NCBI GenBank assembly: GCA_024279425.1
Contig: JAJRRO010000109.1
Location: forward strand, 1 to 40,201
Source: Bacteroidota bacterium
GTDB taxonomy: Bacteria > Bacteroidota > Bacteroidia > Flavobacteriales > Flavobacteriaceae
Length of the DNA: 40,201 bases
Direction of reading: 5' to 3'
In this document: one piece after another, positions 15,065 through 29,842 of the stretch
Numbering within the stretch: position 1 is the stretch's first letter
How the letters are laid out: each line of letters opens with the position of its first letter
Notes under the pieces: model-generated
The model's database searches: none
The model's input: the letters and a program-made list of their open reading frames with translations, nothing else
Told to the model about the DNA's origin: nothing
Program-made: the position numbers and the translations under genes

Positions 15065-16465
15065 CTAATGTTCCACTTTGGTCAACGCGAAATCATCTTT
15101 TAGCATCTGAATTACGTTGATCAAAGTTCTAAGGTTGTGATAATTTACCTTCCAAATATTCGCCTTCGGATCATTTTTTGCCTCTGGATTGGTATCAAGA
15201 CCCTCATGGTACCATCCACCGTATTTATCATCTATCAAATTAGTATCGATGTAGGCCCATTGCTTTTTGAATAAATGTATATAACGCTCCTCCTCAGGGA
15301 ACAATATGGACATCAATAAAAGAGAATTTAATCCTTCGGCCTCTGCCCACCATACCTTTGCTTTATTTTCAATGGTTCTGTTCCCAGATGCATCCCAATA
15401 ATATCCTCCATCATAAAATCCGCCTTTTTCATTATCCCATCCCCACTCTAGCGCATGGTCTATCATCTTTTTGGCGGCTGCCAAGGTGTTACCGTCATTC
15501 TTTTTTCCTAGGATATGGGAGGCCTCCAGCATTAAGAAAGCGGTTTCAACATCGTGGCCAAAAGAGACATGATCCAAATGAAAATTTTGTTTTCTATAAG
15601 CTTCCGTCGAATCACGTAGTGATACCGGCGTCCAATCTCTTTGTAAATGCAGTGTTAAGTATCCTTTTTCCGTTGTAATCGTATCTCTGATCAATACTAA
15701 AAGTTCTTCCAGACGTTGCCCAACAAGCGGGTCGGGCCATACCTTGTAAAGTGCACTAAAGCTCTCCAGCAGGTGTATGCTCGAGTTTTGGTCCTTCCAA
15801 TCCTTTCTATTGAAATTGGCATAGTTTTTATCGTTTATCTTGGTCTCCAACATCCAGGAACCATCCTGTTTTAAAACATCGAAATAACCTTTATAAACGG
15901 AGTCATGGGCGTGCTCTTCCAACCAGGCAAAAGTTTTCTTTGCCAGGTTCAATGCCGTTGTATCCTTAGAAGCCTTGTAATAGGTGGCCAGACCATAAAT
16001 GGCAAAAGAATTGCCATAAGCACTTTTCTCCGTTGAGAGCACCTTTAGTGAATCCCCATCAAATCCCAATAAGGTGTAAAATCCACCATTCTCGATGTCC
16101 CACATCTTGTCTCTTAAAAAACGATATCCATGCTCTGCGATTGCCTTGTATTTTTCGTCTTTATAAAATAAAGCCAAGGTAGAGGCGGTCCAAATATGCC
16201 GTGCCTGACTCACCAGCATTTTATTTTGTTTCCCGATCTTTTCCCATTTGTAATCAAAATCGGACCAGAACCCCCCATGCAGACTGTCCAACGAAATGGG
16301 ATACCAAACATTGACCAACGCGTCCAAAGAAGTCTCCAATCGGGGTAGAAATTCTTCTGATAGGGACTTATCAGGAACTTCTTTCTGTTTACAAGAAAAG
16401 CTTACCAGGACCATTAGTACTACGGCTTTGCTTAAAAACCTGTGAAATTTGAAAATTAAGTTCAT
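15065..16465 (-). CDS. N-acylglucosamine 2-epimerase (AGE)-family lipoprotein
   Basis: Alpha/alpha6-barrel sugar epimerase or isomerase family. Visible family positions: QARHIWTASTLALFY (His/Trp pocket), FGHDVETAFLMLEAS (catalytic-region His and Glu), WWAEAEGLNSLL, DKYGGWYHEGL and VNYHNLRTLINV near the C-terminus. The protein has a lipobox, VLVSFSC at about residue 25, so it should be anchored in the cell envelope, whereas characterised AGE and cellobiose 2-epimerase enzymes are mostly cytoplasmic. It is read divergently from the dehydratase/aldolase pair at 16836-19320 with a 370-base gap, which suggests shared regulation and a shared sugar substrate. Exact activity unknown. Confidence 0.85.
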   Translation of the reverse strand: MNLIFKFHRFLSKAVVLMVLVSFSCKQKEVPDKSLSEEFLPRLETSLDALVNVWYPISLDSLHGGFWSDFDYKWEKIGKQNKMLVSQARHIWTASTLALFYKDEKYKAIAEHGYRFLRDKMWDIENGGFYTLLGFDGDSLKVLSTEKSAYGNSFAIYGLATYYKASKDTTALNLAKKTFAWLEEHAHDSVYKGYFDVLKQDGSWMLETKINDKNYANFNRKDWKDQNSSIHLLESFSALYKVWPDPLVGQRLEELLVLIRDTITTEKGYLTLHLQRDWTPVSLRDSTEAYRKQNFHLDHVSFGHDVETAFLMLEASHILGKKNDGNTLAAAKKMIDHALEWGWDNEKGGFYDGGYYWDASGNRTIENKAKVWWAEAEGLNSLLLMSILFPEEERYIHLFKKQWAYIDTNLIDDKYGGWYHEGLDTNPEAKNDPKANIWKVNYHNLRTLINVIQMLKDDFALTKVEH

Positions 16466-16835
16466 TCCAAAATGTTATTTATGGGTTGCTATAAAGTTAT
16501 CAATAAATAGCCTTTAGCCCTGGATAATTATTCATTTACAAATCATTGCATCAAACGGGTACATCAAAACCTTCATTCAGAAGGATACATGGGTGAATTT
16601 TTAGAGTACTAGGAGAAACTAACACCATTACGAATGAAATTTGAATGTAAAAAGAAGAATATATGTAATATTACTAAGAGATCTATGAAATGGCCTCCAT
16701 AATTCGTAAATTTCTGTCTAACATATCCAATATCCCAATGACCGACCCACATTACAAAATAAGCACCTCTCCTTTGCAAGCGGTTATCTCAAAACAACCA
16801 TCTTAAATTCATACACCAATGTAAAACAATCAAAC
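16466..16835. other. Divergent intergenic region between AGE lipoprotein and dehydratase genes
   Basis: About 370 AT-rich bases that must contain the promoters of both divergent units. I find no exact TAnnTTTG element, no strong hairpin and no coding remnant; nothing specific can be assigned. Confidence 0.4.
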
Positions 16836-18335
16836 ATGAAAAATGCACTACAACAGATTATAACAAAGAACAAAAGGGAAGAAAAACAATACACAGTTTC
16901 GAGGCAAGCTGAGATAGACAACCCTAGAACAAATGGTGCCCGTCGAAATTTTTTGAAGAAAACAGCCTTGGGTGGTATTGGACTATCTGGTTTTATGGGT
17001 TATTCTTTCGAAGACAACATTGCAGAAACCACTTCAAAGGTGAATAGAGCCTCTGCACCTTCCGAACTCAAAATCACCGATATGAGATATGTGCTCACCA
17101 ATGTTATGGGGGGTACAGCCATAATTCGGATAGATACTAACCAAGGGATTTATGGGCTGGGGGAAGTAAGGGATGCAGCCGATGTTCGCTATGCCCTATT
17201 TCTAAAGGCGCGGATATTGGGTAAGAACCCCTGTAATGTTGAAATGCTCTTTAGAAGTATCAAACAATTTGGTGGGCCAGCCAGACAGGCAGGAGGTGTA
17301 TGTGCCGTGGAAATGGCACTTTGGGACATTTGTGGGAAAGCCTATAATGTTCCCGCTTGGCAATTACTCGGGGGACGATATCGAGATAAAATCCGGCTAT
17401 ATGCAGATACACCACAGGCCAAGAGTGTTGAAGAACAAAAGCGGTTAATAGATTTTAGAATGAATGATCAGGGCTACACTTGGTTAAAAATGGATGTGGC
17501 CATATCTTCTCTAGAAAATGATTCAGGTGCCCTTGTGAATGATAAATTCTGGAGAGATACGAATGGGCGATTATCGCAATGGGGCGATAGACGAAATTAT
17601 ATGTCCTATGGGAACACTGCACATCCTTTTACACAAATTCAGGTGACCGAGAAAGGCTTGGATATTTTGGCTCAAAGAGTGGCAGATGTACGTGAGATGG
17701 TTGGCTGGGAAATCCCAATATCTACCGATCACTATGGGCATTTTGACCTTAATAATGGAATTCGTTTGGCCAAAGCGCTGGATAAATACAGACTGGCTTG
17801 GTTCGAGGATATGATTCCATGGCAACACTTAGATCAATGGAGAACTATCACCGAGGCTATTGAAACTCCTACAACCACCGGAGAGGACATTCATTATTTA
17901 GATAATTTTAAACCCCTTATTCACAAAAGATCGGTAGACATTGTTCATCCTGATTTGGCAACATCGGGTGGACTTCTCGAAACAAAAAGAATAGGCGATT
18001 ATGCTGAGGAATTTGGAATAGCCATGGCTATGCACCAAGCTGGTACGCCGGTTTCTTTTATGGCGAATGTCCATTGCGCAGCTGCCACCCAAAACTTTTT
18101 AGCATTGGAACACCATTCCGTAGATATACCATGGTGGGAAAACCTGGTCAAAACGGTTGGTGGATTTAAGATGATAGATAAAGGATATGCCCCGGTTCCT
18201 CTTACCGCTCCAGGTTTGGGCATAGAGCTGAACGAGGATGTAATTAAGGAACATATACATCCAAGCGATAAAAGTTACTTTAAATCCACGAAAGAGTGGA
18301 ATGAACTGCGTTCACATGATAGGACCTACAGTTAG
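16836..18335 (+). CDS. Mandelate racemase/enolase-superfamily sugar-acid dehydratase, Tat-exported
   Basis: Complete enolase-superfamily active site: KMD (catalytic Lys) near residue 219, metal ligands in STDHYGHFD, LAWFEDMIPW and TTGEDIH, the Asp of DIVHPDLATSGG and the His of AMHQAGTPVSF forming the general-base dyad, then LALEHH. These match the acid-sugar dehydratases (galactonate/mannonate type) more than racemases. The N-terminus, after a hydrophilic leader, has ARRNFLKKTALGGIGLSGFM, a twin-arginine signal, so the enzyme should fold with Mg2+ in the cytoplasm and act outside it. It is 49 bases upstream of an exported RraA-like protein, so its product, a 2-keto-3-deoxy acid, could be cleaved next. 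About 75 extra residues lie between KMD and STDHYG. Substrate cannot be read from the sequence. Confidence 0.85.
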   Translation: MKNALQQIITKNKREEKQYTVSRQAEIDNPRTNGARRNFLKKTALGGIGLSGFMGYSFEDNIAETTSKVNRASAPSELKITDMRYVLTNVMGGTAIIRIDTNQGIYGLGEVRDAADVRYALFLKARILGKNPCNVEMLFRSIKQFGGPARQAGGVCAVEMALWDICGKAYNVPAWQLLGGRYRDKIRLYADTPQAKSVEEQKRLIDFRMNDQGYTWLKMDVAISSLENDSGALVNDKFWRDTNGRLSQWGDRRNYMSYGNTAHPFTQIQVTEKGLDILAQRVADVREMVGWEIPISTDHYGHFDLNNGIRLAKALDKYRLAWFEDMIPWQHLDQWRTITEAIETPTTTGEDIHYLDNFKPLIHKRSVDIVHPDLATSGGLLETKRIGDYAEEFGIAMAMHQAGTPVSFMANVHCAAATQNFLALEHHSVDIPWWENLVKTVGGFKMIDKGYAPVPLTAPGLGIELNEDVIKEHIHPSDKSYFKSTKEWNELRSHDRTYS

Positions 18336-18384
18336 TGGTCAAAAAAATGTATTTAAAACAATAAATAACCATCAAATTTAAGAT

Positions 18385-19320
18385 ATGATTACGAGAATAG
18401 TTTTTACGGCACTTTGTGTATGTATCAGTTTTAGTATAGACGCCCAAGGAGTAGCATCATCACCGGAACATATCAAGGCCTTGACTTCTAATTGGAAAGG
18501 AGAGCGATTTGAAGATGGTAGACCTAAGGTCTCCGATGCGTTGCTGGCACGACTTAAGAATATTCAGATCGAAGAAGCCTGGGGGTACTTACGATCTCAT
18601 AATTATCACAACCAGTATGAAGGTAATTGGGAAATAATACATCCAGACAGTGTAATGACAGGTAGAGCAATTACGGCTCAATACATGCCTTTGCGACCAG
18701 ATTTTCAGAACCATGTAAAGTTAGAGGGGGCGATGGAAAAACGAGATACAGTAGGGGGGAGCAATTCTTGGCCGATCGAAATCCTACAGCCCGGAGATAT
18801 TTATGTAGCCGATGGGTATGGTCGGATTATCGATGGGACTTTAATTGGCTCTAATTTGGGCAACGCCATATATGCCAACTCCCAGAACGGTGTCATTTTC
18901 GATGCTGGTGTCAGAGACCTGGCTGGTCTGCGAAATATCCCTGGTTTTAATGGTTGGTTTCGCGGAGATGACCCGTCTTATCTCCAACAGGAAATGCTGA
19001 CTTCCATTAATAAGCCAGTACGCATTGGAAGAGCCATAGTTTTGCCAGGAGATGTAATACTTGCCAATCGCTTCGGAACCGTTTTTATACCCGCACATTT
19101 GGTGTCTGAACTGGTCATTTCATCAGAAGTTGTGGGATTGAGAGACCTATTTGGATTCCAAAGGTTACGAGAGAAAAAATATACACCAGGGCAAATCGAT
19201 ACACGATGGACGGACAGGATCACCGCCGATTTCATGAGTTGGATTCAAAAATATCCTGATAACAAATTACCGATGACCCGGAAAGAGTTGAATGATTATT
19301 TCGCTTCAAGAACTAAATAG
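18385..19320 (+). CDS. RraA-family protein (HMG/CHA aldolase-like), Sec-exported
   Basis: Class II pyruvate aldolase-like fold. The diagnostic part runs from GDIYVADGYGR (about residue 132) through LIGSNLGNAIYANSQ to GVIFDAGVRDLAGL, giving the Arg-Asp pair that positions substrate and Mg2+ in 4-hydroxy-4-methyl-2-oxoglutarate aldolases. The C-terminal part continues to 311 residues, longer than RraA (about 160) or plain aldolases (about 230). MITRIVFTALCVCISFSIDA is a clear signal peptide, so the protein is periplasmic or surface-associated. It forms an operon with the preceding Tat-exported dehydratase, supporting cleavage of a keto-deoxy sugar acid into pyruvate and an aldehyde. RNase E-inhibitor function is very unlikely. 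Confidence 0.82.
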   Translation: MITRIVFTALCVCISFSIDAQGVASSPEHIKALTSNWKGERFEDGRPKVSDALLARLKNIQIEEAWGYLRSHNYHNQYEGNWEIIHPDSVMTGRAITAQYMPLRPDFQNHVKLEGAMEKRDTVGGSNSWPIEILQPGDIYVADGYGRIIDGTLIGSNLGNAIYANSQNGVIFDAGVRDLAGLRNIPGFNGWFRGDDPSYLQQEMLTSINKPVRIGRAIVLPGDVILANRFGTVFIPAHLVSELVISSEVVGLRDLFGFQRLREKKYTPGQIDTRWTDRITADFMSWIQKYPDNKLPMTRKELNDYFASRTK

Positions 19321-19393
19321 AACAATGGCTATCTAAACCTTAAAAACAAACCAAATCCATTTTGAGAGCATATTAAGGTGTCGTTCCCGCGAA

Positions 19394-19425
19394 TCTGCTT
19401 GTCGGCAGACTCCTTAAAAAGAAGG
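19394..19425 (+). terminator. Weak hairpins after the dehydratase/aldolase operon
   Basis: TCTGC-TTGTCG-GCAGA (19394-19409) is followed by CCTT-AAAAAG-AAGG and a short T run. Either may terminate the upstream operon. The preceding TTCCCGCGAATCTGC resembles dispersed palindromic repeats often seen between genes in this group. Confidence 0.35.
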
Positions 19426-19568
19426 TTTTTGGAACAGGTTCAAATTTTTCTCTTCTTTTTTGCAGAAAGCATTGCGTAAAAAAATTACTGCCCCAGATTT
19501 TAATACATCTGTTTTAAAACCTGTAAAATTCATATTATGTTGCTTATTTACAACAAAATTGATTTTTT

Positions 19569-19588
19569 TGTCTTAAATAAACGACATT
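19569..19588. promoter_or_regulatory. Candidate autoregulatory operator before hipB
   Basis: Immediately before the hipB ATG, TTGTC and CGACAT form an imperfect inverted repeat. The half-site AACGACAT also occurs in two palindromes just after hipA (21152-21212). HipB-type antitoxins bind palindromes at their own promoter, so this is a reasonable operator candidate, though untested. Confidence 0.35.
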
Positions 19589-19876
19589 ATGAACTCTAAA
19601 AAAGCAATTGTCCTTCCTAAATTCAAGAAAATGTTTGAGCAATTAGGGGAAAACATAAAGCTTGCCAGGAAGAGAAGAAAACTTACCACAGAACAGGTTT
19701 CAGAACGAGCCGGTATCCATAGGGCTACCCTTTACCGTATTGAAAAGGGAAACCCAGCCGTTGCCATTGGCTTATATTTTAATGTGTTTAAAGTATTGAA
19801 CCTTCAAGATGACTTCCTGAAACTGGGTACGAATGATGTGTTTGGACGAAAACTACAGGATCTTGATTTATTATAA
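19589..19876 (+). CDS. hipB: HipB-like helix-turn-helix antitoxin/regulator
   Basis: A 95-residue protein with one XRE-type helix-turn-helix: LGENIKLARKRRKLTTEQVS then ERAGIHRATLYRIEKG (turn and recognition helix). The gene ends five bases before the hipA-like gene, the standard hipBA order. HipB neutralises the HipA kinase and represses the operon. The ATG at 19589 is preceded by a motif repeated downstream of hipA (see operator entry). Confidence 0.85.
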   Translation: MNSKKAIVLPKFKKMFEQLGENIKLARKRRKLTTEQVSERAGIHRATLYRIEKGNPAVAIGLYFNVFKVLNLQDDFLKLGTNDVFGRKLQDLDLL

Positions 19877-19881
19877 GTAGT

Positions 19882-21134
19882 ATGGCAGAAGGGAAATTTG
19901 ACATATTTGTGTATGCCGATTGGATCGGATTGCATGGGCCTACATTCATTGGGACACTTTCTGCGCTTTTTGCCAAAGGCAAAAAGGCCTTCAGTTTTGA
20001 ATACGATAAAGATTGGTTGAAAACAGATAGCCAAAGTCTTTTAGATCCCGATATACAGTTCTACTCTGAACCACAATACCCAACTAACAAAGAAAACTTT
20101 GAGATCTTCTTGGATAGTATGCCCGCACATGGGGTAAAACACTTATGCAAAGAAGGGCAACCCAAGAAGCCCGGGCAAAGAATGAAAAAGCTCAAACACT
20201 TTATGAAATAGATTATCTATTGGGCGTATATGACGAAAGCAGGATGGGAGCCTTGCGCTTTAAGACCGAAATGGATGGCTCTTTTTTGGACAATAATGCC
20301 ATAAATCCAACTCCCCCTTGGTCATCCCTGAGAGAGTTGCAGGAAGCCGTGAATCAGTTGGAAAATGATAATCAGAACGATACCATTAAAAAATGGCTTG
20401 CGGTATTGATTGCTCCAGGTTCGTCATTAGGTGGTGCCCGTCCCAAGGCAAACATCTTTGATGTACAAAAGAATCTATGGATTGCCAAATTCCCCTCAAA
20501 AGCGGATACCATTGATAAAGCGGCTTGGGAGTATTTGGCATACAGATTGGCTATTGCTGCAGGAATTGAAATGGCTGAATCTAAAATAGAAAAGATTAGT
20601 GGTCAGTACCATACCTTTTTAACAAAACGTTTTGATAGAGAAAAGGGGAAACGGATACACTTTGCTTCTGCAATGACCATGACAGGTAATACCGAAGAGA
20701 CCATCAGGGATACCCCGCCCAGCTATTTGGAACTTGTTGAGTTTATTGAAACCAATGGAGTCGATGTGCAAGCAAACTTACATCAATTATGGCTTAGAAT
20801 TATATTCAATGTCACTATTTCCAATACAGATGACCATTTGCGTAACCATGGCTTTATTTTGAAGGAAAAAGGATGGGTGCTTTCTCCCGCTTACGACATA
20901 AACCCTTCCATTGAAAAGGATGGCCTAGCACTTAATATTGATATGGATGATAACGCATTGGATTTGGAACTGGCTAAAAGCGTGGGTGAATACTTCCGCT
21001 TGAATGACGAGCAAATGGATACTATCATAAATAAAGTGTTGGAGGTCGTTGTCCAATGGCAAACGCTTGCCACCGAAATTGGAATTTCTCGCGGTGAGCA
21101 AGTAGTAATGGCAGGGGCATTTATGGATGGCTAA
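19882..21134 (+). pseudogene. hipA: HipA-like serine/threonine kinase toxin, split by one frameshift
   Basis: The first frame (19882-20211) carries the N-terminal domain (DIFVYADWIGLHGPTFIGTL). At about 20122-20124 the reading frame is lost; one extra C in the CCC run restores RTWGKTLMQRRATQEARAK and the frame 20145-21134. That part has the kinase core: SSLGGARPKANIFD (phosphate loop), WIAKFPSKADTIDKAAWE, FLTKRFDREKGKR, TISNTDDHLRNHGF (catalytic Asp and Asn) and LSPAYDINPS (metal-binding Asp). Total about 417 codons, normal for HipA (about 440). If the missing C is a sequencing error the toxin is intact; otherwise the system is inactivated. HipA relatives phosphorylate glutamyl-tRNA synthetase or related targets. 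Confidence 0.8.
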
Positions 21135-21151
21135 GCTGATGTATTTATTTA

Positions 21152-21212
21152 ATATGTCGATAAAACAATTAAATTTCGACATATACTTTGATTATGTCGT
21201 TACCAACGACAT
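21152..21212. repeat. Two tandem perfect palindromes sharing an ATGTCG half-site
   Basis: Palindrome 1: ATATGTCGA (21152-21160) and TCGACATAT (21176-21184). Palindrome 2: ATGTCGTT (21194-21201) and AACGACAT (21205-21212). Neither is followed by a T run, so they look like protein-binding sites rather than terminators. The same half-site appears just before hipB. Confidence 0.55.
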
Positions 21213-21295
21213 TCTTAAACCTGCCTACCGATAAGTAAGTCTCAAAAAGTAGGGGTGGAGAACTTGTTTTTGAATGTATAGTTTTTGGAAAAGAT

Positions 21296-21321
21296 AAAAG
21301 CCGACTTTTTAGTCGGCTTTT
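21296..21321. terminator. Strong bidirectional rho-independent terminator
   Basis: AAAAGCCGACT, loop TTTT, AGTCGGCTTTT: an 11-base perfect stem with A and T tracts on its sides, placed between the converging hipA (plus) and lipoprotein (minus) genes, so it can stop transcription from both. Confidence 0.85.
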
Positions 21322-21352
21322 ATAAAGTTTCAATTAAACAGCGATATAAAAC

Positions 21353-22068
21353 CTAATCCAATAAGTCTGCAGCCATTTTAATATTCTCTTTTAGGGCATC
21401 GGCAATATCTTGATTTCCGTCTTCATCGTTTGGATAAATTTCAATCAACCCATCATCGTTAGAGTCCGTGGCCAAACTTAAGTCAATTTGGTTGAGCGAA
21501 TTTAAAAATTGTGAAATATCAAATTGGACCGTAAAATTTACGGTTCCATTTTCTACCAACACTCCAGTATCTCTACCTACATCCAAGTTTTCACTGGTAT
21601 CATGCCAGAAAACAAAAGGTATATCATTAATTGTACCTTCTACATAAATAGATTTATCAAAAAGCTTATCTGTAATAGGTAAATCTTCATCCTTGTGAAA
21701 CTTAAATCGCATTTCCTTATAAAGTCCATCAGGCACAAAAGCATCACCTATGGCTTGGGATAAAGCGTTCTCCTCTTTCAAAAGATCAATTTGGTAAGGG
21801 CCTCTAAATTGAATCTCATCCGTAGCAAGATCACTGGTAGGATCGTCATCATTTTTAAAAACGACATCACGAATAGAGATTTTGAATTCTGTAAAAATCA
21901 CATTAGCATTTGATGCTTTTTAGCTAGTGGCCATCTTGGAAGCATTGGAATTAATGGCACTAAAAGATAGTTTAATACCTCCTTCACTTTCATTTTTAGA
22001 ACAACTGATAATGGCCAAACTACATAAAAATAATCTTTTAATAGCATTAAAATTTGGGGTTTGAACAT
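21353..22068 (-). pseudogene. Lipoprotein of unknown function (DUF4382-like in layout), broken by a stop and a frameshift
   Basis: The longest frame (21353-21901) encodes FTEFKISIRDVVFKND, LLKEENALSQAI, GLYKEMRFKFHKDED, VYVEG-type beta strands and acidic tail SNDDGLIEIYPNDEDGNQ. Upstream in the same frame, past TAA at 21920-21922, comes a lipoprotein signal FLCSLAIISC and KLSFSAINSNASKMATS. The start ATG at 22068 is one base out of frame, at a run of four A's (22049-22052); one more base would give MFKPQIFNAIKRLFLCSL. The gene thus carries a nonsense codon plus a probable homopolymer error. Layout recalls small calcium- or ligand-binding DUF4382-type lipoproteins, but I am not sure of the family. 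Confidence 0.6.
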
Positions 22069-22094
22069 AAATAACAACTTGCTAACGAAACCCC

Positions 22095-22229
22095 CTACTT
22101 TATATTGCTATTGTTGCTTGGTGGTTTAGTGACATGTCCAATATCTTTAAAGGCGTCAACAATAATTAAAATTTCCTTTCCAGAAAGCCCTACAGCCTTT
22201 GTTCTTTGTAATCTAAGAGGACTTTGCAT
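22095..22229 (-). CDS. Small hypothetical ORF, 44 codons
   Basis: ATG at 22227-22229 to TAG at 22095-22097 encodes MQSPLRLQRTKAVGLSGKEI and LIIVDAFKDIGHVTK. The composition is protein-like but there is no homologue I recognise. It lies upstream of the broken lipoprotein on the same strand and could be a leader peptide or a relic. The rest of 22230-22532 shows nothing else. Confidence 0.3.
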   Translation of the reverse strand: MQSPLRLQRTKAVGLSGKEILIIVDAFKDIGHVTKPPSNNSNIK

Positions 22230-22532
22230 TTAAAAGTTACTTTTTATAAATATGTTCGTTAAGGGACATAGCAACAAATAACAGTGTTTAAAATATAGAT
22301 ATTCAATTACTTGAAATACTGGACTTACTATATTTAACTGGACATAAAGTTAAGAGCGTGTTCGCTTTTAAAATTAACTTTGAAAAATGTCAAGAGAAAA
22401 AAGGAATTACACCTTCCCTCTCTTTCTTCGGTCAAGTACAACCAAGACCATAGAAAACAATTGATAGAATTCAAAACAGTCTCTAGAAAGTAAACTAAAA
22501 AAATTTACCTTTATCGATGCAAAAAAAAGATT

Positions 22533-23762
22533 ATGACTGCAAGGGATAGTAAAGGGAAAGATGCTTCATACATCAATCGTTTGAATAAGATTGAAGTTCT
22601 TAAACTTATCAGAGAATCTGAACAACTATCTCGCGCAGCTATTGTAAAGCGAATGGGGTTAAGCGCCCCAACCGTAACTCGAATCGTGGATTGTCTTATA
22701 AAGGACAAGTTGGTTATTATGACCGGTGAAGGTGACTCGACCGGTGGTAGACCTCCTAAACTATTACAATTTGATGGCACCCATGATTTTGTAATTGGCA
22801 TTGATCTGGGTTCAACCACTATAAGGGCGGCCGTTTCTGATCTTGAAGGTAATTTCATTACTGAAATTGAAATGCAAACTGATTTGGAGGGTGGGTTTGA
22901 AAAAATATGTTCACAGCTAGTTCAAGTCATTCGAAAATTAATTCTCCGCTCCAAACTTGATGAGAGTCAAATACTAGGTGTGGGCCTAGCCGTTGCGGGT
23001 CTCGTAAATTTCGAAAATGGAATGATTGCGTATTCTCCTGTATTCAATTGGAAGAATGTTAATTTAAGAACAGAACTGAGTCGGCATATAGCCCTTCCCA
23101 TTTTTTATGACAATGTATCCCTAGTTACAGCCTTAGGAGAACTGGTCCACGGAGTGGGCAAAGAATACAAGAATTTTATCTGCGTCAATGCAGGCTATGG
23201 TATTGGAGCAGGCATTATTATTAACGGTGTTCCGTTTTATGGCAATCATGGGTTTGCTGGAGAATTTGGCCACTTAATCGTAGATAGTAAAAATAGCTAT
23301 GTTGGAAAGGGGGGACTTAGGGGCAGCCTTGAATCCTTGGCCTCAGGATATGGAATTGCTGAGAATGCCAAAAGAAACATAGGTGCCCATAAGAATAGCA
23401 AAATTTTGAATAAAGCAAATGGCAATTTAGAAGAAATTACCGCTAAAATTGTTGTAGACTGTGCAAAGGAGAATGATGCATTCGCGAATGATATATTCGA
23501 TGTAGCAATGGATTGTTGGGGTATAGGTTTAGACGCATTAATTAAACTTTTTGACCCAGAGGCTATTGTAATCTCTGGGGGACTAACTAAAAGCGGGGAG
23601 ATTTTCTTTAAGAAATTAAGAGAGAATATTTTAAAAAATGAGTTTAAACAACTCAAAAACGAGGTGCAGATTCTCCCTTCCTCTTTCGGGGTTGACGCTA
23701 CACTAATTGGTGCTTTATCCTTAGTCATTTCCAAAGTACTTCAATTTGAAGTTAAGTTCTAA
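22533..23762 (+). CDS. ROK-family transcriptional regulator
   Basis: An N-terminal winged helix (SRAAIVKRMGLSAPTVTRIV, residues about 34-53) followed by a ROK sugar-kinase-like domain: VIGIDLGSTTIRAAVSD (phosphate loop), VNAGYGIGAGIIING and GFAGEFGHLIVD. The zinc motif CxCGxxGCxE is absent; the region reads YVGKGGLRGSLESLASG with no cysteines. The usual N-D pair holding the catalytic aspartate reads YDNVSLVTALGE, with Asp and Asn exchanged. Both changes argue for a sugar-sensing repressor or activator without kinase activity. It stands alone upstream of the aldo/keto reductase to polysaccharide deacetylase run and is a good candidate for regulating it. Confidence 0.88.
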   Translation: MTARDSKGKDASYINRLNKIEVLKLIRESEQLSRAAIVKRMGLSAPTVTRIVDCLIKDKLVIMTGEGDSTGGRPPKLLQFDGTHDFVIGIDLGSTTIRAAVSDLEGNFITEIEMQTDLEGGFEKICSQLVQVIRKLILRSKLDESQILGVGLAVAGLVNFENGMIAYSPVFNWKNVNLRTELSRHIALPIFYDNVSLVTALGELVHGVGKEYKNFICVNAGYGIGAGIIINGVPFYGNHGFAGEFGHLIVDSKNSYVGKGGLRGSLESLASGYGIAENAKRNIGAHKNSKILNKANGNLEEITAKIVVDCAKENDAFANDIFDVAMDCWGIGLDALIKLFDPEAIVISGGLTKSGEIFFKKLRENILKNEFKQLKNEVQILPSSFGVDATLIGALSLVISKVLQFEVKF

Positions 23763-24381
23763 ATTCGTAAACTTCATAAATGTATTGGAAGGAATGTTAT
23801 ACTTGATCTTTTGCTTTTCAAATATGATAAATTACCCGCATAGAATTGAAGGCATACTAAATCCGTACAACAGATTTAATGACAATACCGATCACATCTC
23901 ATAATGACCCGCATTTTCTTAATATGTAACGACCTACCATCGGTATTTTTAAAAATGCCCTATATTCTACTATCACTGTCAAATTTGAGATAATTACGTT
24001 TTTCCGACTAAAGATCAACACTCTTTTTAGGAAGTTAAGAATGACATATACCCAGTTTAAACCAGTGGAATAATTTTATCAAACATACTTTCTAACATTT
24101 AATTAGTATATTGCACATTCAACAAAACGCTTTATGTTTAATTTGGTTGTTAACCCGTACGTTTTACTTTGATTAGCCCCTTGGGCCCTAATTTAGTTCC
24201 TTTACAACATTAGCTTTTTAGGGGCAAAGGTATTCGTCAATTCGTGGGCCATAGGTTATAAAGTAGACGAAGGAACTTTAGTTTTTTAAAACCGCCTTCC
24301 TTTAGGATATTTTAAATCCAAGATAGTTGAAAGCCAAGAATTAAATTAGCGAATTGGAATGATTAAAATGAAGTTCAATTT
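23763..24381. other. Long non-coding stretch before the aldo/keto reductase operon
   Basis: About 620 bases with no open frame of note and no repeated element that I can see. It holds the promoter candidate at 24142-24171. The length suggests a long 5' leader or extra regulatory sites. Confidence 0.45.
24142..24171 (+). promoter_or_regulatory. Candidate Bacteroidota promoter (TTTG-N18-TTACTTTG)
   Basis: TTTG at 24142-24145 and TTACTTTG at 24164-24171 match the -33/-7 consensus (TTTG and TAnnTTTG) with one mismatch and an 18-base spacer, close to the usual 19-21. It would start transcription about 200 bases before the aldo/keto reductase gene. Confidence 0.4.
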
Positions 24382-25368
24382 ATGAATAAAAGAACACTAG
24401 GTAAAACCGGATTTAGTGTTGGCGAAGTAGGACTGGGGTGTTGGCAACTTGGAGCAGATTGGGGCCATCCTATAACAAAGGACACTGCGTTTTTGATTTT
24501 ACAAGAAGCCGTGGACAATGGCGTGAATTTTCTTGATACCGCCGACGTTTATGGTAATGGGAAAAGTGAAGAAATTATAGGGGAGTTTATTAAAGATAAA
24601 CGTGCTACCTTAAAGATAGCGACCAAATTTGGAAGAGATGCCGAAACCTTTCCAAATAACTACACGGAAGCAGCCTTACGTAATTCAGTCAAGGCCTCCA
24701 TTGATCGACTTGGTTTGGAATCACTTGATTTATTGCAACTTCATTGTATCCCCATTAATATTCTTAAGAATGGAGAAATATTCCATTGGCTACGTACCCT
24801 AAAAAAAGAAGGGCTGATCAAAAATTTCGGAGCAAGTGTTGAAACGGTGGAGGAGGGTTTAATTTGTCTTGAACAAGAAGGAATCCTTTCTTTACAAATC
24901 ATCTTCAATATATTTAGACAAAAACCTTTGCAAGAATTATTGCCTAAAGCTAAAGGTCTTGGCGTCGGAATTATTGTTAGGTTACCATTGGCAAGTGGTT
25001 TATTAAGTGGAAAATTTACAAAAAAGACTCAATTTCCCGATAATGATCATAGGTGTTACAATCGGAATGGAGAAGCCTTTAATGTTGGTGAGACTTTTGC
25101 AGGCATTCCCTTCGAAAAAGGGGTTGAATTGGCCAATCTAATTGAGAACAGCTTTTTACCCAAAAACATGTCAATGGTGCAATTGGCCTTAAGGTGGATT
25201 CTGGATCATGAGGCGGTAAGTTGTATTATCCCGGGTGCAAGTTCCCCTTCTCAAATCAGATCTAATGCCGAAGTATCATATTTAGGTGCTTTGCCACTCC
25301 ATATTCATATAGCTCTATCAGAATTTTACACGAAGGAAATTCATCAAAATATACGTGGAAATTATTAA
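24382..25368 (+). CDS. Aldo/keto reductase
   Basis: TIM-barrel NADPH-dependent oxidoreductase, 328 residues, no signal peptide, cytoplasmic. Catalytic tetrad: Asp and Tyr in FLDTADVYGNGKSEE, Lys in IATKFGRD and His in LLQLHCIP. Cofactor positions near the C-terminus: CIIPGASSPSQIRSNAE. First gene of the sugar-metabolism run downstream of the ROK regulator. Relatives near Gfo/Idh/MocA genes often oxidise or reduce sugars or sugar-derived aldehydes; substrate not deducible. Confidence 0.9.
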   Translation: MNKRTLGKTGFSVGEVGLGCWQLGADWGHPITKDTAFLILQEAVDNGVNFLDTADVYGNGKSEEIIGEFIKDKRATLKIATKFGRDAETFPNNYTEAALRNSVKASIDRLGLESLDLLQLHCIPINILKNGEIFHWLRTLKKEGLIKNFGASVETVEEGLICLEQEGILSLQIIFNIFRQKPLQELLPKAKGLGVGIIVRLPLASGLLSGKFTKKTQFPDNDHRCYNRNGEAFNVGETFAGIPFEKGVELANLIENSFLPKNMSMVQLALRWILDHEAVSCIIPGASSPSQIRSNAEVSYLGALPLHIHIALSEFYTKEIHQNIRGNY

Positions 25369-25572
25369 ACTAAACTTTGCGGTCTTAATACCACCCCTAC
25401 ATACAATTTGATACTTACAACCCATCAAATATATTATAACAGTTATGTACTAAGCTATATTTTCCTTTGGTAAAGACTTTGAAAAGTATTTTACAAAGAC
25501 AGCCGTTGAAAACTACCTTCCTTTAAATAGGGACAACACATTAACCTAACATTAAAATAAATATTGGTCATT

Positions 25573-25975
25573 ATGGCCTCACGACGAAAATTTATTGGAA
25601 GAATTACCACTTCGACCTTTAGTTTGCCACTTTTATTCGAACCCATGGACATATTTGACTTTCCTCCACAGCAGCATAATGACTCTATATTGCGGGTAAC
25701 CATCATGGGTTTGTGCAGTTATGCTACAGGGGTGGCCAATGCAATGCAATCTTGCAAACGTGCAAAACTAGTACGTGTTGTCAGTGATACTCCTTCAAAA
25801 TCACCCATTGGCAAGAAGAGCACAATATTCCAAAGGTCAATTGTTATTCCTACGCTACTATTAATGAAATTAATGACAACCATGATATTGACGCCGTTTA
25901 TGTAACACTCCCCCCAGTCGTCTTCACCGCGACAGGGTCATTAGCATTGTCAAGGTGGGAAAACAGGCCAAATAA
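25573..25975 (+). pseudogene. Gfo/Idh/MocA-family oxidoreductase, truncated and frameshifted, with Tat-like signal
   Basis: From ATG 25573 the frame reads MASRRKFIGRITTSTFSLPL, a Tat-like leader, then RVTIMGLCSYATGVANAM, the Rossmann start of the family, and AKLVRVVSDTPSK. At A4 (25797-25800) the frame slips to HWQEEHNIPKVNCYSYATIN and DIDAVYVTLPP; at C6 (25910-25915) it slips again to SRLHRDRVISIVKVGKQAK, then stops. These pieces follow the family order up to the position of the AGKHVxCEKP motif. The C-terminal substrate domain is missing altogether and NIPSNAP begins 45 bases later, so the gene is truly truncated even if both slips are read errors. Confidence 0.75.
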
Positions 25976-26019
25976 ACGTGTGATTTAACCAGTAATTAGA
26001 AGAAAAATAAAAATACAAT

Positions 26020-26784
26020 ATGAAAAGAAGAAAATTAATGTACGTCGCCCTAATGGCAATCATCTTGTCGTTGACAAGCTTTGGTTACGAATCAGAAATG
26101 CTAAAAAATAAAGGCGAAAAAGAACTTTACGAAATCCGTACTTATGAAATTAAATTAGGGGGAAATCAACAAATTCTTATCGACTATTTGAAGAATGTAC
26201 TACAACCAACCTTAAAGCGTGTTGGTGCCAACCATTTTATGCTCTTCAATGAACTCGGGAATTCTAATCCGACTAAACTTTGGGTAATCATCAGTTATCC
26301 TAACAGCCAGACTTACATGGATGCCCAAAACTTGGATGCCGATCCTCAATATACCAAAGCGGCATCAGGTTATAATGCCCTTTCGCAAGATGATAGGATC
26401 TATAACAGGTTTACTTCTTCCCTATTGCTTGCATTTGATGGTATGCCCAATATGTTGGATCCGATTAATGGAGCCTCATTATTTGAATTGCGGACTTATG
26501 AGGGGTATAGTGAAGATGCTGTAAGACGCAAGATCAACATGTTCAATAAAGAGGAGATTGATCTTTTTTTGAAAACAAACCTACATCCCGTATTTTTTGG
26601 TGAAATGATTATAGGACCACATAGACCTTGCCTAACCTACATGCTGAACTTTAAGGATATGAAGGAACATGATGCTAGTTGGAAAGCTTTTGTGGACCAT
26701 CCGGAGTGGAAAGTTATGAGTGCTAAAAAAGAATATGCCAATTCTGTATCGAATATACGAAAGGTATTTTTGATACCTTTATAA
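26020..26784 (+). CDS. NIPSNAP-family protein, exported
   Basis: Two tandem NIPSNAP (dimeric alpha/beta-barrel) units start at ELYEIRTYEIKLG (about residue 35) and LFELRTYEGYSED (about residue 162). The signal peptide MKRRKLMYVALMAIILSLTS precedes the first. Members of this family occur beside sugar oxidoreductases in this phylum; biochemical role unknown. It sits between the decayed Gfo/Idh/MocA gene and the sorbosone-dehydrogenase-like gene. Confidence 0.85.
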   Translation: MKRRKLMYVALMAIILSLTSFGYESEMLKNKGEKELYEIRTYEIKLGGNQQILIDYLKNVLQPTLKRVGANHFMLFNELGNSNPTKLWVIISYPNSQTYMDAQNLDADPQYTKAASGYNALSQDDRIYNRFTSSLLLAFDGMPNMLDPINGASLFELRTYEGYSEDAVRRKINMFNKEEIDLFLKTNLHPVFFGEMIIGPHRPCLTYMLNFKDMKEHDASWKAFVDHPEWKVMSAKKEYANSVSNIRKVFLIPL

Positions 26785-26856
26785 ACAACTACTGTCTGAA
26801 AAACAATAATAATCAAGGATTTTTTTTTCTAAACTTCTCTAGGTATAGATGAAGAG

Positions 26857-26920
26857 AGAGGCTGAAGAAAAGGTAGTAAAATCCTTTATATCGAATAGAT
26901 TAAAAGAGAGAGCAGCCTCT
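26857..26920. repeat. Inverted repeat with long loop after NIPSNAP
   Basis: AGAGGCTG (26857-26864) and CAGCCTCT (26913-26920) are perfect inverse copies separated by 48 bases. A stretch of nine T's lies just upstream at about 26820-26828. It may be a relic of a small repeat rather than a terminator. Confidence 0.3.
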
Positions 26921-27010
26921 ACATTGTATTGCAATTAAAGAACACTAAAGCAAAACATAATAACCGTTTTTACTGTTGCATGTCTTATTTTTAACCTAAT
27001 CCATCATATA

Positions 27011-28324
27011 ATGACCAAGATCAAATTACATCCATATGCTAGGGTCCAAAAGCTACTTTTAGGATCGGCACTCCTTATTTTCTTTGCCTGTAAAATGGAA
27101 AATAAAGTACAAGATTCATCAGCTAACCTGCAAATAAGCCCAGACAATGCCAGCCTATCCGTACCGGAAGGTTTCGGGGTGATAAAAGTGGCCGATTCGC
27201 TCGGGAAACCACGTCATATTGCAGTAACTTCCAAAGGGGGGATCTATGTAAAATTAAGGCAGCCCATTGATGGAAAGGGGATTCTATTCCTCGAGGACGA
27301 TGATAATGATGGGATCGCGGATACCATAGATGGTTTCGGCGATTATGGCGGTACCGGGATTTATGTCGACGAAAACTATTTGTATGCCTCCTCCGACGAA
27401 GAAATTTTTCGATATAAAATTGATGAGGATAAAAAAGTGGTTAATAAAGTAACTCCGGACACCATTGTGACCCAATTAATCAACCGCAGACAGCACGCAT
27501 CAAAATCGATTACCCTAGATCAAAAGGGTAATATTTATGTGAATATTGGTGCCTATTCAAATGCCTGCCAACAAAAAGATAGAACCGTTGGTTCCCCAGG
27601 GATGACACCTTGTGCCATCCTTGATTCTGCTGGGGGCATCTGGCGTTTTAGGGCGGATAAGCTCAAACAATCTTATGGGGATGGCAGTAGGTTTGCCACA
27701 GGTTTACGGAATGTGGTCGGACTGGATTGGAACAAAGAGGCCGACCAATTATTTGTGACCCAGCATGGAAGGGATATGTTACATACGCTCTACCCTGATT
27801 TATATGATCAGAAAACCTCGGCCATCCTTCCTGCAGAAACTATGTATAAGCTCAGAGAAAGGGACGATGCCGGCTGGCCATATATATATTACGACCAGTT
27901 GCAGAAAAAAAAGATACTGTCACCCGAATACGGAGGGGACGGCAAAAAGATCGGAGGGGAAAATGCATTGGAACCCATAGTGGCTTTTCCCGGCCATCTT
28001 GCCCCCAATGCCCTACTTTTCTATACCGGGGACATGTTCCCTGAAAAATATAAAAATGGGGCTTTTATAGCCTTCCATGGCTCTTGGAACAGGGCTCCCG
28101 AAAAGCAAGCCGGTTATTTGGTCGCATTTGTCCCTTTTAAAAATGGAATGCCAAGTGGAGACTGGGAAGTGTTCGCCGACGGATTTGCCGGCTCAAAAGA
28201 CATCCTCTCTCCTAGCGATGCCACACACAGACCTACTGGATTGGCTCAAGGCCCAGATGGGTCGCTATATGTTTCCGATGATTCTGGAGGTACTTTATAC
28301 AGGATCATCTATACCAACAAATAA
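27011..28324 (+). CDS. PQQ-type sugar dehydrogenase (L-sorbosone dehydrogenase-like), lipoprotein
   Basis: Six-bladed propeller quinoprotein family that oxidises aldoses or sorbosone and passes electrons to a cytochrome. Lipobox LLIFFAC at about residue 27. Motifs: VPEGFGVIKVADSLGKPRHI, RQHASKSITLDQKGNIYVNI (His and Lys region), FATGLRNVVGLDW, TQHGRDMLH and HRPTGLAQGPDGSLYVSDD. These match sorbosone/glucose-type dehydrogenases. The cytochrome c gene begins six bases after the stop, which fits a two-component dehydrogenase. No PQQ biosynthesis genes are in the window, so PQQ would have to be taken up or made elsewhere. Product would be an aldonic acid or lactone in the periplasm. Confidence 0.88.
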   Translation: MTKIKLHPYARVQKLLLGSALLIFFACKMENKVQDSSANLQISPDNASLSVPEGFGVIKVADSLGKPRHIAVTSKGGIYVKLRQPIDGKGILFLEDDDNDGIADTIDGFGDYGGTGIYVDENYLYASSDEEIFRYKIDEDKKVVNKVTPDTIVTQLINRRQHASKSITLDQKGNIYVNIGAYSNACQQKDRTVGSPGMTPCAILDSAGGIWRFRADKLKQSYGDGSRFATGLRNVVGLDWNKEADQLFVTQHGRDMLHTLYPDLYDQKTSAILPAETMYKLRERDDAGWPYIYYDQLQKKKILSPEYGGDGKKIGGENALEPIVAFPGHLAPNALLFYTGDMFPEKYKNGAFIAFHGSWNRAPEKQAGYLVAFVPFKNGMPSGDWEVFADGFAGSKDILSPSDATHRPTGLAQGPDGSLYVSDDSGGTLYRIIYTNK

Positions 28325-28330
28325 ACTGGG

Positions 28331-28843
28331 ATGCGAATTAATAATCAACCTAGAGCTAAATTAAAAGGCCCATTCTTCACCTTATTGTCCGTACTTGTTT
28401 TAACTAGTTGTAATAGCCGTAACAGGAATGAAAAGAAGGTGAATACAGAAACAGAAGTACAGATCGGTTCAAAATTACAGGACAAGGCCATACAGGCAAG
28501 TTTGCCATCCTACATAGAAGAAGGAAAAGAGGTATACACCCAAAATTGCCTGGTCTGTCATCAATCTACCGGGGAAGGTGTTCCAGGTTTAAATCCTCCT
28601 TTAAATGATACCCCATACGTTTTGGGTGATAAAAGTAGGTTATTGGACATACTGGTCAACGGATCTGACGTGGGGCTGGTCGTCAAGGGATCGGCCTATT
28701 CCAATGCCATGCCTTCATTTATCGCATTAAGTGATAAGGACATCTCCAATGTGGCCTCCTATATTAGAAATGATTTTGGGAATTCGGCAGAACCCATAAC
28801 AGTAGAAGATATTGCGGCCTTTCGATTAAATACTAGTAAATAA
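28331..28843 (+). CDS. Class I cytochrome c, lipoprotein
   Basis: Single-heme cytochrome: QNCLVCHQSTGEGVPGLNPP contains the CxxCH site (about residue 76) and NAMPSFIALSDKDI holds the axial methionine. Lipobox VLVLTSC anchors it to the membrane. 170 residues. It is sandwiched with gaps of six bases between the sugar dehydrogenase and an aldo/keto reductase, so it is the likely electron acceptor for the dehydrogenase. Confidence 0.92.
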   Translation: MRINNQPRAKLKGPFFTLLSVLVLTSCNSRNRNEKKVNTETEVQIGSKLQDKAIQASLPSYIEEGKEVYTQNCLVCHQSTGEGVPGLNPPLNDTPYVLGDKSRLLDILVNGSDVGLVVKGSAYSNAMPSFIALSDKDISNVASYIRNDFGNSAEPITVEDIAAFRLNTSK

Positions 28844-28849
28844 AAAAAC

Positions 28850-29842
28850 ATGGAATATAGAAAATTGGGAAGTACGGACCTTGAGGTCTCGGCCATTACC
28901 TTTGGTGCCTGGGCTGCCGGGGGATGGATGTGGGGCGGTAGCGATACAGGCGAGGCCATTAAGGCAATTAGAAGCGCCTATGACCAAGGGGTAACCTCGA
29001 TCGACACCGCCCCTGTATATGGGCAGGGCGCCAGTGAGGAAATCGTAGGTAAAGCTATTAAAGACCTTCCTAGGGACAACGTTCAAATTCTTACCAAATT
29101 TGGTCTCCGTTGGGACCTTAAGAAGGGGGGGTTTCATTTTCACAGCAAGGACAACCAGGGGAAGGACATAGATATTTACAAATACGCCAGTAAAAAAAGT
29201 ATAATAAAGGAAGTAGAGGATTCCCTTAAAAGGCTTAGAACAGATTATATTGACCTGTACCAAATCCATTGGCCCGACACCTCCACGCCCATCCAAGAGA
29301 CCTTTGAGTCCGTCGCCCAATTAATACGAGATGGGAAGGTACGTTATGCAGGGGTCTGCAACTATAGTGTAGAACAGATGAAGGAAGCCGAAAAGTATGT
29401 GAATATTACCTCCAACCAATTACCCTTCAGCATGGTCAACAAAGGCATTGAAAATGAAATTGTGCCCTATTGCATAAAAAACAATAAATCAATACTTGCC
29501 TATAGTCCTTTGGAAAGAGGGCTCTTGACAGGAAAAATGAGGCCAGGACAACTCTTCGATAAAGGCGATCATAGAGCAAACCACCCGTTTTTTTCTCGCC
29601 AGAGCATTGTAAAAATTAATGCCTTTCTTGAAAAAATTAAGCCGATTGCCGAAGCCAAAGGGGCAACCTTGGCTCAACTAGTTTTAAAATGGACCTTGGA
29701 AAGGCCAGGGATCACCATTGCCCTGGCAGGGGCAAGAAATAAAAGTCAATCCGTACAAAATGCAGCGGCTGCTGCATTTAGTCTGGATCTGGAAGAGATT
29801 GAATTCATCAACCTAGAACTTGAAAAAATAAGATTACAGTAG
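28850..29842 (+). CDS. Aldo/keto reductase
   Basis: 330 residues, cytoplasmic. Catalytic residues: SIDTAPVYGQGASEE (Asp, Tyr), ILTKFGLRW (Lys), LYQIHWPD (His); cofactor loop ITIALAGARNKSQS. Closely linked (six-base gaps) to the cytochrome and dehydrogenase. It may reduce an aldehyde produced or imported by the same pathway. Distinct from the copy at 24382 and clearly not a recent duplicate. Confidence 0.92.
   Translation: MEYRKLGSTDLEVSAITFGAWAAGGWMWGGSDTGEAIKAIRSAYDQGVTSIDTAPVYGQGASEEIVGKAIKDLPRDNVQILTKFGLRWDLKKGGFHFHSKDNQGKDIDIYKYASKKSIIKEVEDSLKRLRTDYIDLYQIHWPDTSTPIQETFESVAQLIRDGKVRYAGVCNYSVEQMKEAEKYVNITSNQLPFSMVNKGIENEIVPYCIKNNKSILAYSPLERGLLTGKMRPGQLFDKGDHRANHPFFSRQSIVKINAFLEKIKPIAEAKGATLAQLVLKWTLERPGITIALAGARNKSQSVQNAAAAAFSLDLEEIEFINLELEKIRLQ

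Follow-up and report, generated by a model that had tools for sequence, protein, structure and literature searches.

The window analyzed here, that is, the whole 40,201-nucleotide stretch of a Flavobacteriaceae genome (GenBank assembly GCA_024279425.1, contig JAJRRO010000109.1, positions 1 to 40,201), carries between positions 15,065 and 29,842 a set of genes for predicted exported enzymes, at the center of which lie an enolase-superfamily protein of the mandelate-racemase type (MR) and a protein with the RraA/HMG-aldolase fold (RraA). A first-pass annotation of this DNA had read them, along with an epimerase and a sugar dehydrogenase with its cytochrome, as a sugar-acid pathway situated outside the cytoplasmic membrane. 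Open reading frames (ORFs), their translations, and scans with Pfam and NCBIfam recovered all the genes it had named in their places; the twin-arginine (Tat), Sec and lipoprotein signals of the window proteins were judged by eye. The features are as follows:

15065..16465, minus strand: AGE-family 2-epimerase with a lipoprotein-type N-terminus ending in VSFSC (PF07221, 5.3e-36)
16836..18335, plus strand: MR of type M1, predicted Tat-exported, a probable sugar-acid dehydratase (PF13378, 3.9e-45; PF02746, 4.3e-11)
18385..19320, plus strand: RraA/HMG-aldolase-fold protein, predicted Sec-exported, paired with MR (PF03737, 1.7e-14)
19589..21134, plus strand: a pair of ORFs that we take, from their sequence, to be HipB/HipA-like (hipBA)
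22533..23762, plus strand: ROK-family regulator with a MarR-type helix-turn-helix (PF00480, 1.3e-51; PF01047, 4.3e-06)
24382..25368, plus strand: aldo/keto reductase 1, no export signal by eye (PF00248, 9.1e-58)
25564..25905, plus strand: decayed Gfo/Idh/MocA oxidoreductase with a Tat-like N-terminus (homologues in loci L115 and L090)
26020..26784, plus strand: NIPSNAP-domain protein with a Sec-type N-terminus (PF07978, 1.2e-17; 67% identical orthologue in locus L035, beside GSDH in genome G047)
27011..28324, plus strand: GSDH-family (glucose/sorbosone dehydrogenase) lipoprotein, N-terminus ending in IFFAC (PF07995, 7e-10)
28331..28843, plus strand: lipoprotein cytochrome c, N-terminus ending in VLTSC, heme motif CLVCH (PF00034, 1.6e-11)
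28850..29842, plus strand: aldo/keto reductase 2, YdjG-like, no export signal by eye (PF00248, 3.9e-73; 75% identical orthologue in G047)
32394..33563, plus strand: FMN-dependent 2-hydroxyacid dehydrogenase/oxidase, no export signal by eye (PF01070, 8.3e-111)

The N-terminus of MR includes ARRNFLKKTALGGIGLSGFMG, a twin-arginine signal of the form RR-x-FLK, and that of RraA, MITRIVFTALCVCISFSIDAQ, is a Sec-type signal. MR and RraA are separated by 49 bp, and the GSDH, cytochrome c and aldo/keto reductase 2 genes by gaps of 6 bp. Between these two halves lie hipBA, a DUF4382 gene, the ROK regulator and others, and the AGE gene is on the opposite strand; as the halves are thus interrupted, we reject a reading of the whole interval as one operon. 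Nevertheless, a link between them is indicated by genome G047 (locus L035), which carries within about 10 kb MR (truncated at the edge of the contig), RraA, a DUF4440 gene, an SBF-family sodium symporter (SBF), NIPSNAP, GSDH and an aldo/keto reductase, without hipBA or a separate cytochrome c and with two opposite-strand genes in between. The absence of hipBA from the matching place suggests that in the window it is probably an insertion outside the pathway. The Gfo/Idh/MocA remnant, which itself gave no match in the Pfam or NCBIfam scans, was rightly recognized from the start: its homologues in L115 and L090, which are Gfo/Idh/MocA proteins by Pfam and are located in the RraA/MR clusters of those loci, align with it in two reading frames, with 45-51% identity.

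We examined relatives in three sets, with all linkage counts raw and kinship between genomes ignored. The first comprises the best 80 loci of at least 584 confirmed relatives of the window RraA from a scan of species genomes; many of the fetched stretches are cut, and by their record titles they come from, among others, Maribacter, Ulvibacterium, Allomuricauda, Algoriphagus, Cyclobacterium, Chitinophagaceae, Bacteroidales, Mucilaginibacter and Saprospiraceae. The second comprises 149 related genomes, of which G002, G047 and G022 correspond to loci L054, L056 and L062 of the first set, and the third is an even draw of 296 Bacteroidota genomes from across the phylum. RraA adjoins MR, on the same strand and within 300 bp, in 71 of the 80 loci (94 of 107 RraA ORFs), where MR and RraA account for 111 and 107 of 1005 ORFs, respectively. 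In the phylum draw, the RraA family (E 1e-50) was present in 18 of the 296 genomes, the window's included, at 28 places, some of them overlapping; 19 of these, the window among them, have MR within the 4-kb locus, and four have genes of an amino-sugar version of the cluster (DgaE or AmidoH) described below. Within the window's genus, contig C161 of G002 (26185 bp) encodes an RraA 95% identical to that of the window. Further, the RraA and MR types are paired as matched paralogues: 106 neighbor pairs comprise 66 R1-M1, 25 R2-M2, 10 R1-M2 and no R2-M1 combinations, the remaining five involving R3 copies, and in all 10 R1-M2 pairs M2 is the upstream gene, in agreement with the tandem order R2-M2-R1-M1-SBF that is frequent among the 80 loci.

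The export signals are conserved as well. A simple rule, namely a positive charge followed by a hydrophobic stretch, with an RR motif for Tat, is passed by 98 of 105 RraA ORFs; among the seven that fail it, six have a signal displaced inward by a first start codon upstream of it, and in one the N-terminus is hydrophobic but lacks the positive charge that the rule demands. The RR motif is present in 74 of 75 M1 and 31 of 34 M2 proteins, with 60 M1 and 14 M2 passing both parts of the rule, and no positives were obtained among 36 control proteins from the same loci (KdgK, Eda, FAH and ADH). The rule is crude, given that six of eight SDR proteins scored positive, surely falsely, on account of their Rossmann folds; SDR proteins were hence unusable as a control, and UxuA (4 of 11 positive) was dropped because Tat-exported UxuA-like proteins were mixed in. 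The export signals that the first-pass annotation had read in the window are thus shared by its close homologues; by this rule, and with the seven exceptions explained, no close homologue lacking a signal peptide came to light. Among the papers listed by a literature search limited to open-licence papers, no description of an exported RraA-dehydratase pair was seen, and ordinary annotations hide what is a conserved module of predicted exported enzymes. On balance, we favor the view that this is a Bacteroidota module for processing sugar acids between the membranes, of which the window has an incomplete copy.

With regard to MR itself, the protein contains both Pfam domains of the family, and D298, E324, E350, D373 and H400 are retained in 37 of 37 aligned sequences, as is a Lys-x-Asp motif; we take the first three to be metal ligands and D373-H400 to be the His-Asp dyad. 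The M1 proteins also conserve a D-H-x-G-H motif. Both in sequence (1.9e-57) and by Foldseek with the predicted model (mean pLDDT 83.7; 2.3e-31) the best match is 2qq6, a structure without a named function; further structural matches include the gluconate dehydratase 3twa and mannonate dehydratases, with the 3,6-anhydro-D-galactonate cycloisomerase of Zobellia (5olc) at rank 38. Among the named dehydratase equivalogs (galactonate, gluconate and mannonate), the best score of 179.7 bits falls below the NCBIfam cut-off of 311. We regard the window MR as a probable sugar-acid dehydratase.

The RraA protein matches 3noj in sequence (4.9e-12), and its AlphaFold model (pLDDT 92.6) recovers 5x15, 3k4i and 3noj in Foldseek at 1e-12 or better with TMt of 0.72-0.90, which places it in the RraA/HMG-aldolase fold. 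Another Foldseek match with this fold, 5ir2, bears the title 'novel cellulases from microbes associated with the gut ecosystem'. Arg177-Asp178, invariant in 45 of 45 RraA sequences, align with Arg123 and Asp124 of 3noj, and the motif D-X20-R-D is present in 119 of 139 distinct exported RraA proteins, its first Asp aligning with Asp102 of 3noj; the lettering of the motif and the role of Asp102 as a metal ligand are our assumption. The roles of Arg123 and Asp124 in HMG/CHA aldolase have been described, and metal binding and catalysis are reported to depend on two motifs, one or the other of which is present in most homologues (PMC5065237).

The genes that most often accompany RraA and MR in the 80 loci are those for SBF (50) and SusC (35), followed by KdgK (10), Tat-type UxuA-like proteins (8), Eda (6) and AGE (4); sugar oxidases and UxuA-like proteins were counted by similarity, with Pfam applied to L074 and L182 only. 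The linkage proposed for the window stands for dehydratase and RraA but is rare for the two together with a sorbosone-type dehydrogenase (one of the 80 loci) or with any sugar oxidase (seven); GSDH is accordingly ruled out as the conserved third partner of MR-RraA, a place taken by SBF. Two distant genomes combine a PQQ-heme dehydrogenase, gluconolactonase, MR, RraA and SBF (KdgK, Eda and SBF being identified there by their similarity to proteins of L039 and L034). One, L182, has on a single strand SusC, a presumed SusD-like gene, two Tat-UxuA genes, RraA, MR, SBF, MR, a PQQ dehydrogenase with its own cytochrome c, gluconolactonase, KdgK and Eda; the other, L179, has RraA, MR, SBF, MR, an AGE lipoprotein, a PQQ dehydrogenase and gluconolactonase. 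A PQQ dehydrogenase also follows RraA2 in Maribacter flavus (L061, by Pfam), which has both RraA types, and its 85% identical relative follows RraA2 in Allomuricauda aurea (L060). As the module is present in named strains (Maribacter flavus KCTC 42508, Pseudozobellia thermophila DSM 19858, Allomuricauda aurea BC31-1-A7 and Algoriphagus winogradskyi DSM 15360), the question is directly testable. The UxuA-like proteins of the mannonate dehydratase family with twin-arginine N-termini were seen beside RraA/MR in L182, L074, L066, L068, L073 and L088.

The presence of AGE tracks that of MR. Over the 149 genomes, AGE and MR occur together in five, MR alone in one, AGE alone in two, and neither in 141 (Fisher p 2e-7, or 4e-6 without the window's genome, kinship ignored). 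The AGE lipoprotein sits with the module in L179 and L128 but elsewhere in G047, G029 and G022, which rules out a shared transcription unit throughout. Its nearest solved relatives are cellobiose 2-epimerases (5zig, 4e-41, with the H-D-x-E, W-W and Y-H-N blocks aligned), though it scores 149.8 bits against a cut-off of 800 for the EpiA cellobiose 2-epimerase equivalog NF041848. Aldo/keto reductase 2 is likewise below the cut-off of NF049922 (240 bits against 550).

The GSDH protein passes the gathering cut-off of PF07995 (39.1 bits against 25) and falls below those of both NCBIfam models it matched; the label 'sorbosone dehydrogenase' given to it earlier is hence sound as a family name but does not specify a substrate. 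It is 45-51% identical to GSDH-cytochrome proteins of a second type of cluster (L034, L036, L037, L038 and L048), one of which lies in the window's own genome (G000, contig C123:20000-39999, locus L034, 7714-16326). This predicted exported cluster, like the SBF importer candidate, was absent from the first-pass annotation and was found in the follow-up. It encodes a GSDH-cytochrome c fusion, a PIG-L deacetylase with an RR signal, an exported PRK09237-type amidohydrolase (AmidoH), SBF, an exported RraA 53% identical to that of the window, a Tat-type RidA, a Tat-type DgaE-like PLP protein and a RidA-like lipoprotein, the signals being again judged by eye. The DgaE-type protein is a relative of glucosaminate ammonia-lyase, scoring 190 bits with TIGR01437, below its cut-off of 385; it was found in seven of the 296 genomes of the phylum draw (E 1e-60). 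Twelve loci of this sister cluster, seven chosen via RraA and five via DgaE, all have AmidoH and RidA, 10 have the GSDH fusion, nine RraA and nine SBF; among the five chosen via DgaE, RraA is near in two. Thus, the sorbosone-type family, rare beside MR-RraA, is fused to a cytochrome c in 10 of these 12 loci. From its gene content, the sister cluster looks like one for extracytoplasmic catabolism of N-acetylglucosamine acid.

The ong cluster of Pseudoalteromonas prydzensis provides a parallel: N-acetylglucosamine acid is deacetylated to glucosamine acid, which a PLP enzyme deaminates to 2-keto-3-deoxygluconate (KDG), releasing ammonia; a RidA protein is essential and KdgK acts next, OngB and OngC being predicted to be cytoplasmic and to act after import by an SSS-type importer (PMC9537276). 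The chemistry of the sister cluster would match in deacetylation, deamination to KDG and the involvement of RidA. Unlike the ong cluster as described there, it has its own oxidase, export-type N-termini (by eye in L034), an exported RraA and SBF; the likeness is one of gene family, rather than of an alignment of OngB and OngC with AmidoH and DgaE.

The gene content, export-type N-termini, conserved pairing, folds and conserved catalytic residues laid out above are direct observations; for the scheme that follows we infer the substrates, the direction and every activity. Sugars would enter the periplasm (via SusCD in relatives), where a periplasm-facing GSDH or PQQ dehydrogenase would oxidize the aldose, passing electrons to its cytochrome c, and gluconolactonase (in relatives) would open the lactone. 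The Tat-exported MR might then dehydrate the aldonate to a 2-keto-3-deoxy acid, upon which the exported RraA could act, most likely as a metal-dependent aldolase yielding pyruvate and an aldehyde. SBF would import the acid product, either pyruvate or the uncleaved keto-deoxy acid for KdgK and Eda inside. The sister cluster would follow the same plan for N-acetylglucosamine, with oxidation, deacetylation, elimination of ammonia aided by RidA, RraA and SBF.

The steps of this scheme differ in their strength. That oxidation and dehydration take place outside the membrane is likely in our judgment, and oxidation with dehydration or deamination outside is supported by genomics. The earlier core idea of sugar-acid chemistry outside the membrane accordingly gains from the linkage and the export signals, whereas its stronger claim of a whole non-phosphorylating route is doubtful. 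Complete cleavage outside is a tentative proposal, more doubtful than otherwise. In its favor, every type of dehydratase is paired with a particular RraA, the aldolase motif is present in most RraA proteins, and RraA also lies beside the ammonia-lyase version; moreover, BASS2, a plant protein of the same BASS family as the bacterial SBF, is a named plastid pyruvate transporter and thus carries a 2-keto acid, though the substrate of SBF is only putative (PMC5316546). The fullest version appears rather unlikely, namely that many Bacteroidota have a complete periplasmic sugar-to-pyruvate route, from an oxidase with its own cytochrome and a lactonase, through an exported dehydratase (or exported ammonia lyase with exported RidA), to an exported RraA aldolase, passing electrons directly to respiration and importing only small acids by a sodium symporter.

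Several observations weigh against the proposed scheme. Beside the MR-RraA pair of the window no SBF gene was found among its ORFs or in the family scans, and nine of the 80 loci have no adjacent same-strand MR (four at a contig edge, L054, L071, L092 and L099; three with no MR in the stretch, L055, L058 and L120; two with MR on the other strand, L130 and L132). The linkage to sugar oxidases is weak (7/80). The best PqqE score in the window's genome is 50.1 bits against a cut-off of 381.35, in a comparison without a positive control as 14 of 14 control genomes also fall below it; GSDH may therefore need scavenged PQQ or another cofactor. The window RraA reads S-X20-R-D, with Ser156 in place of the metal-ligand Asp, and the same Ser occurs in 15 of 74 distinct type-1 copies, including the best type-1 matches of the 13 loci L054-L066; the Asp is kept in all 34 type-2 copies counted. 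Being common to the type-1 copies of those loci, the Ser is a shared change, which rules out mere decay, and by its motif the window protein cannot be filed with the HMG/CHA aldolases, where most of the family fits. At residue 300 of MR, two positions after the first metal Asp, the window has Tyr, and 29 of 29 M1 proteins have Tyr, Phe, Trp or Thr; M2 proteins have His there in 8 of 8, presumably the acid His of galactonate-dehydratase-type enzymes. Finally, KdgK and Eda in 10 and six of the 80 clusters, respectively, suggest that in many cases the keto-deoxy acid stays uncleaved.

This last point bears on the strongest alternative, a semi-phosphorylative route to which we assign a serious, if less than even, chance: oxidation and dehydration would take place outside, SBF would import the 2-keto-3-deoxy acid for KdgK and Eda to finish inside, and RraA would have a role apart from the final cleavage, for instance in a tautomerase or epimerase step, or would handle stereoisomers that KdgK rejects. 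Since KdgK occurs in 10 loci and elsewhere in the genome, the keto acid may indeed be imported and phosphorylated. KdgK adjoins SBF on one strand in seven of its 10 loci; Pseudozobellia thermophila (L039, L062) has a one-strand run SusC-SusD-MR-RraA-DUF4440-SBF-KdgK-Eda, and L182 includes the order SBF-MR-PQQ-SGL-KdgK-Eda. Contig C78 of the window's genome encodes Eda and a KdgK 93% identical to the L039 protein, both beside the uronate genes UxaC and UxuA and a TRAP transporter, consistent with cleavage inside. KdgT and SBF also belong to a common BART fold group (PMC8396727). The description of the pathway as non-phosphorylating and ending outside is therefore not upheld in its pure form. 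Conversely, KdgK is absent from what was fetched of 70 of the 80 loci (many stretches being cut), nine of the 12 sister loci have RraA and SBF with no match to KdgK or Eda, and the semi-phosphorylative route does not account for the pairing of each dehydratase type with an RraA of its own.

A different assignment of the enzymes is improbable but deserves mention. Lacking the acid His, M1 is to be regarded as a superfamily member rather than a galactonate dehydratase, and it could be an epimerase or, in light of the Zobellia enzyme among its matches, an anhydro-sugar-acid cycloisomerase; RraA would then be the dehydratase or decarboxylase, like FlDet, an RraA-family enzyme from Flavobacterium that turns 2-keto-3-deoxy-glucarate into alpha-ketoglutaric semialdehyde (PMC8563752). 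However, the best NCBIfam models for M1 are sugar-acid dehydratases, as are several of the matched structures by title, if not the top one; its tandem partner M2 has the His and so resembles an ordinary dehydratase, M1 being the unusual one. FlDet is 20% identical to HMG/CHA aldolase (PMC8563752) and is likened to the window RraA here by description, not sequence. Still less probable is a coincidental neighborhood of unrelated exported enzymes in a carbohydrate-rich region, with the GSDH half unconnected to the MR-RraA half, as might be suggested by hipBA and the other genes between the halves, the single locus of 80 with GSDH beside MR-RraA, and the AGE genes located elsewhere, given the same linkage in G047 (the genome of that single locus), the GSDH family with RraA and SBF in the sister clusters, and the tracking of MR by AGE.

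Returning to the exported module, several known systems come close to it. In the non-phosphorylative Entner-Doudoroff pathway of archaea, oxidation, dehydration and aldol cleavage proceed without ATP, and PQQ dehydrogenases oxidize glucose in the periplasm; in known cases of this kind the dehydratase and aldolase are cytoplasmic. The proposed module would share with these the oxidation outside and the absence of ATP, and would differ from them in where dehydratase and aldolase act. More generally, the usual teaching is that bacteria first import sugars or sugar acids and only then dehydrate or deaminate them. If our proposal is true, central steps of sugar catabolism, with exported dehydratases, PLP ammonia lyases, RidA and RraA, would have moved to the periplasm of major polysaccharide degraders, models of their energy yield and cross-feeding would change, and a family named after an RNase E regulator would acquire a role; were the complete periplasmic route true, no ATP would be spent on uptake or activation of sugar carbon. 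In relation to the HMG/CHA aldolase and its RraA relatives, the exported RraA proteins have the fold and the invariant Arg-Asp in common, and most of them also the third residue of the motif, but they are exported, about 300 amino acids long and paired with a dehydratase, with Ser for Asp102 in the window copy (PMC5065237). FlDet likewise shares the family, a Flavobacterium origin and a 2-keto-3-deoxy sugar acid substrate, but catalyzes a different step, and the words 'periplasm' and 'signal peptide' are absent from the main text of its description (PMC8563752).

Some further observations concern the surroundings of these genes. In the window's genome, the KdgK and Eda genes belong to one run at L190 (G000 C78:160000-179999) comprising UxuA, UxaC, KdgK, Eda and the TRAP transporter, followed by a GSDH-like lipoprotein of 738 amino acids and a DUF1080-type protein (assigned by similarity, UxaC by Pfam). 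At 7608-8987 the window encodes another predicted exported PLP enzyme, a DegT-family aminotransferase with the twin-arginine N-terminus SRRKFVKQ, neighbored by a lipoprotein-like protein without a Pfam match (9043-10449) and a ceramidase-like protein. At 181-4853, the minus strand carries two overlapping ORFs that look like one frameshift-split oxidoreductase, which we take to be a pyruvate:ferredoxin/flavodoxin oxidoreductase, and an ORF at 5129-5647, presumably transposase-like from its sequence, is a possible insertion-sequence remnant.

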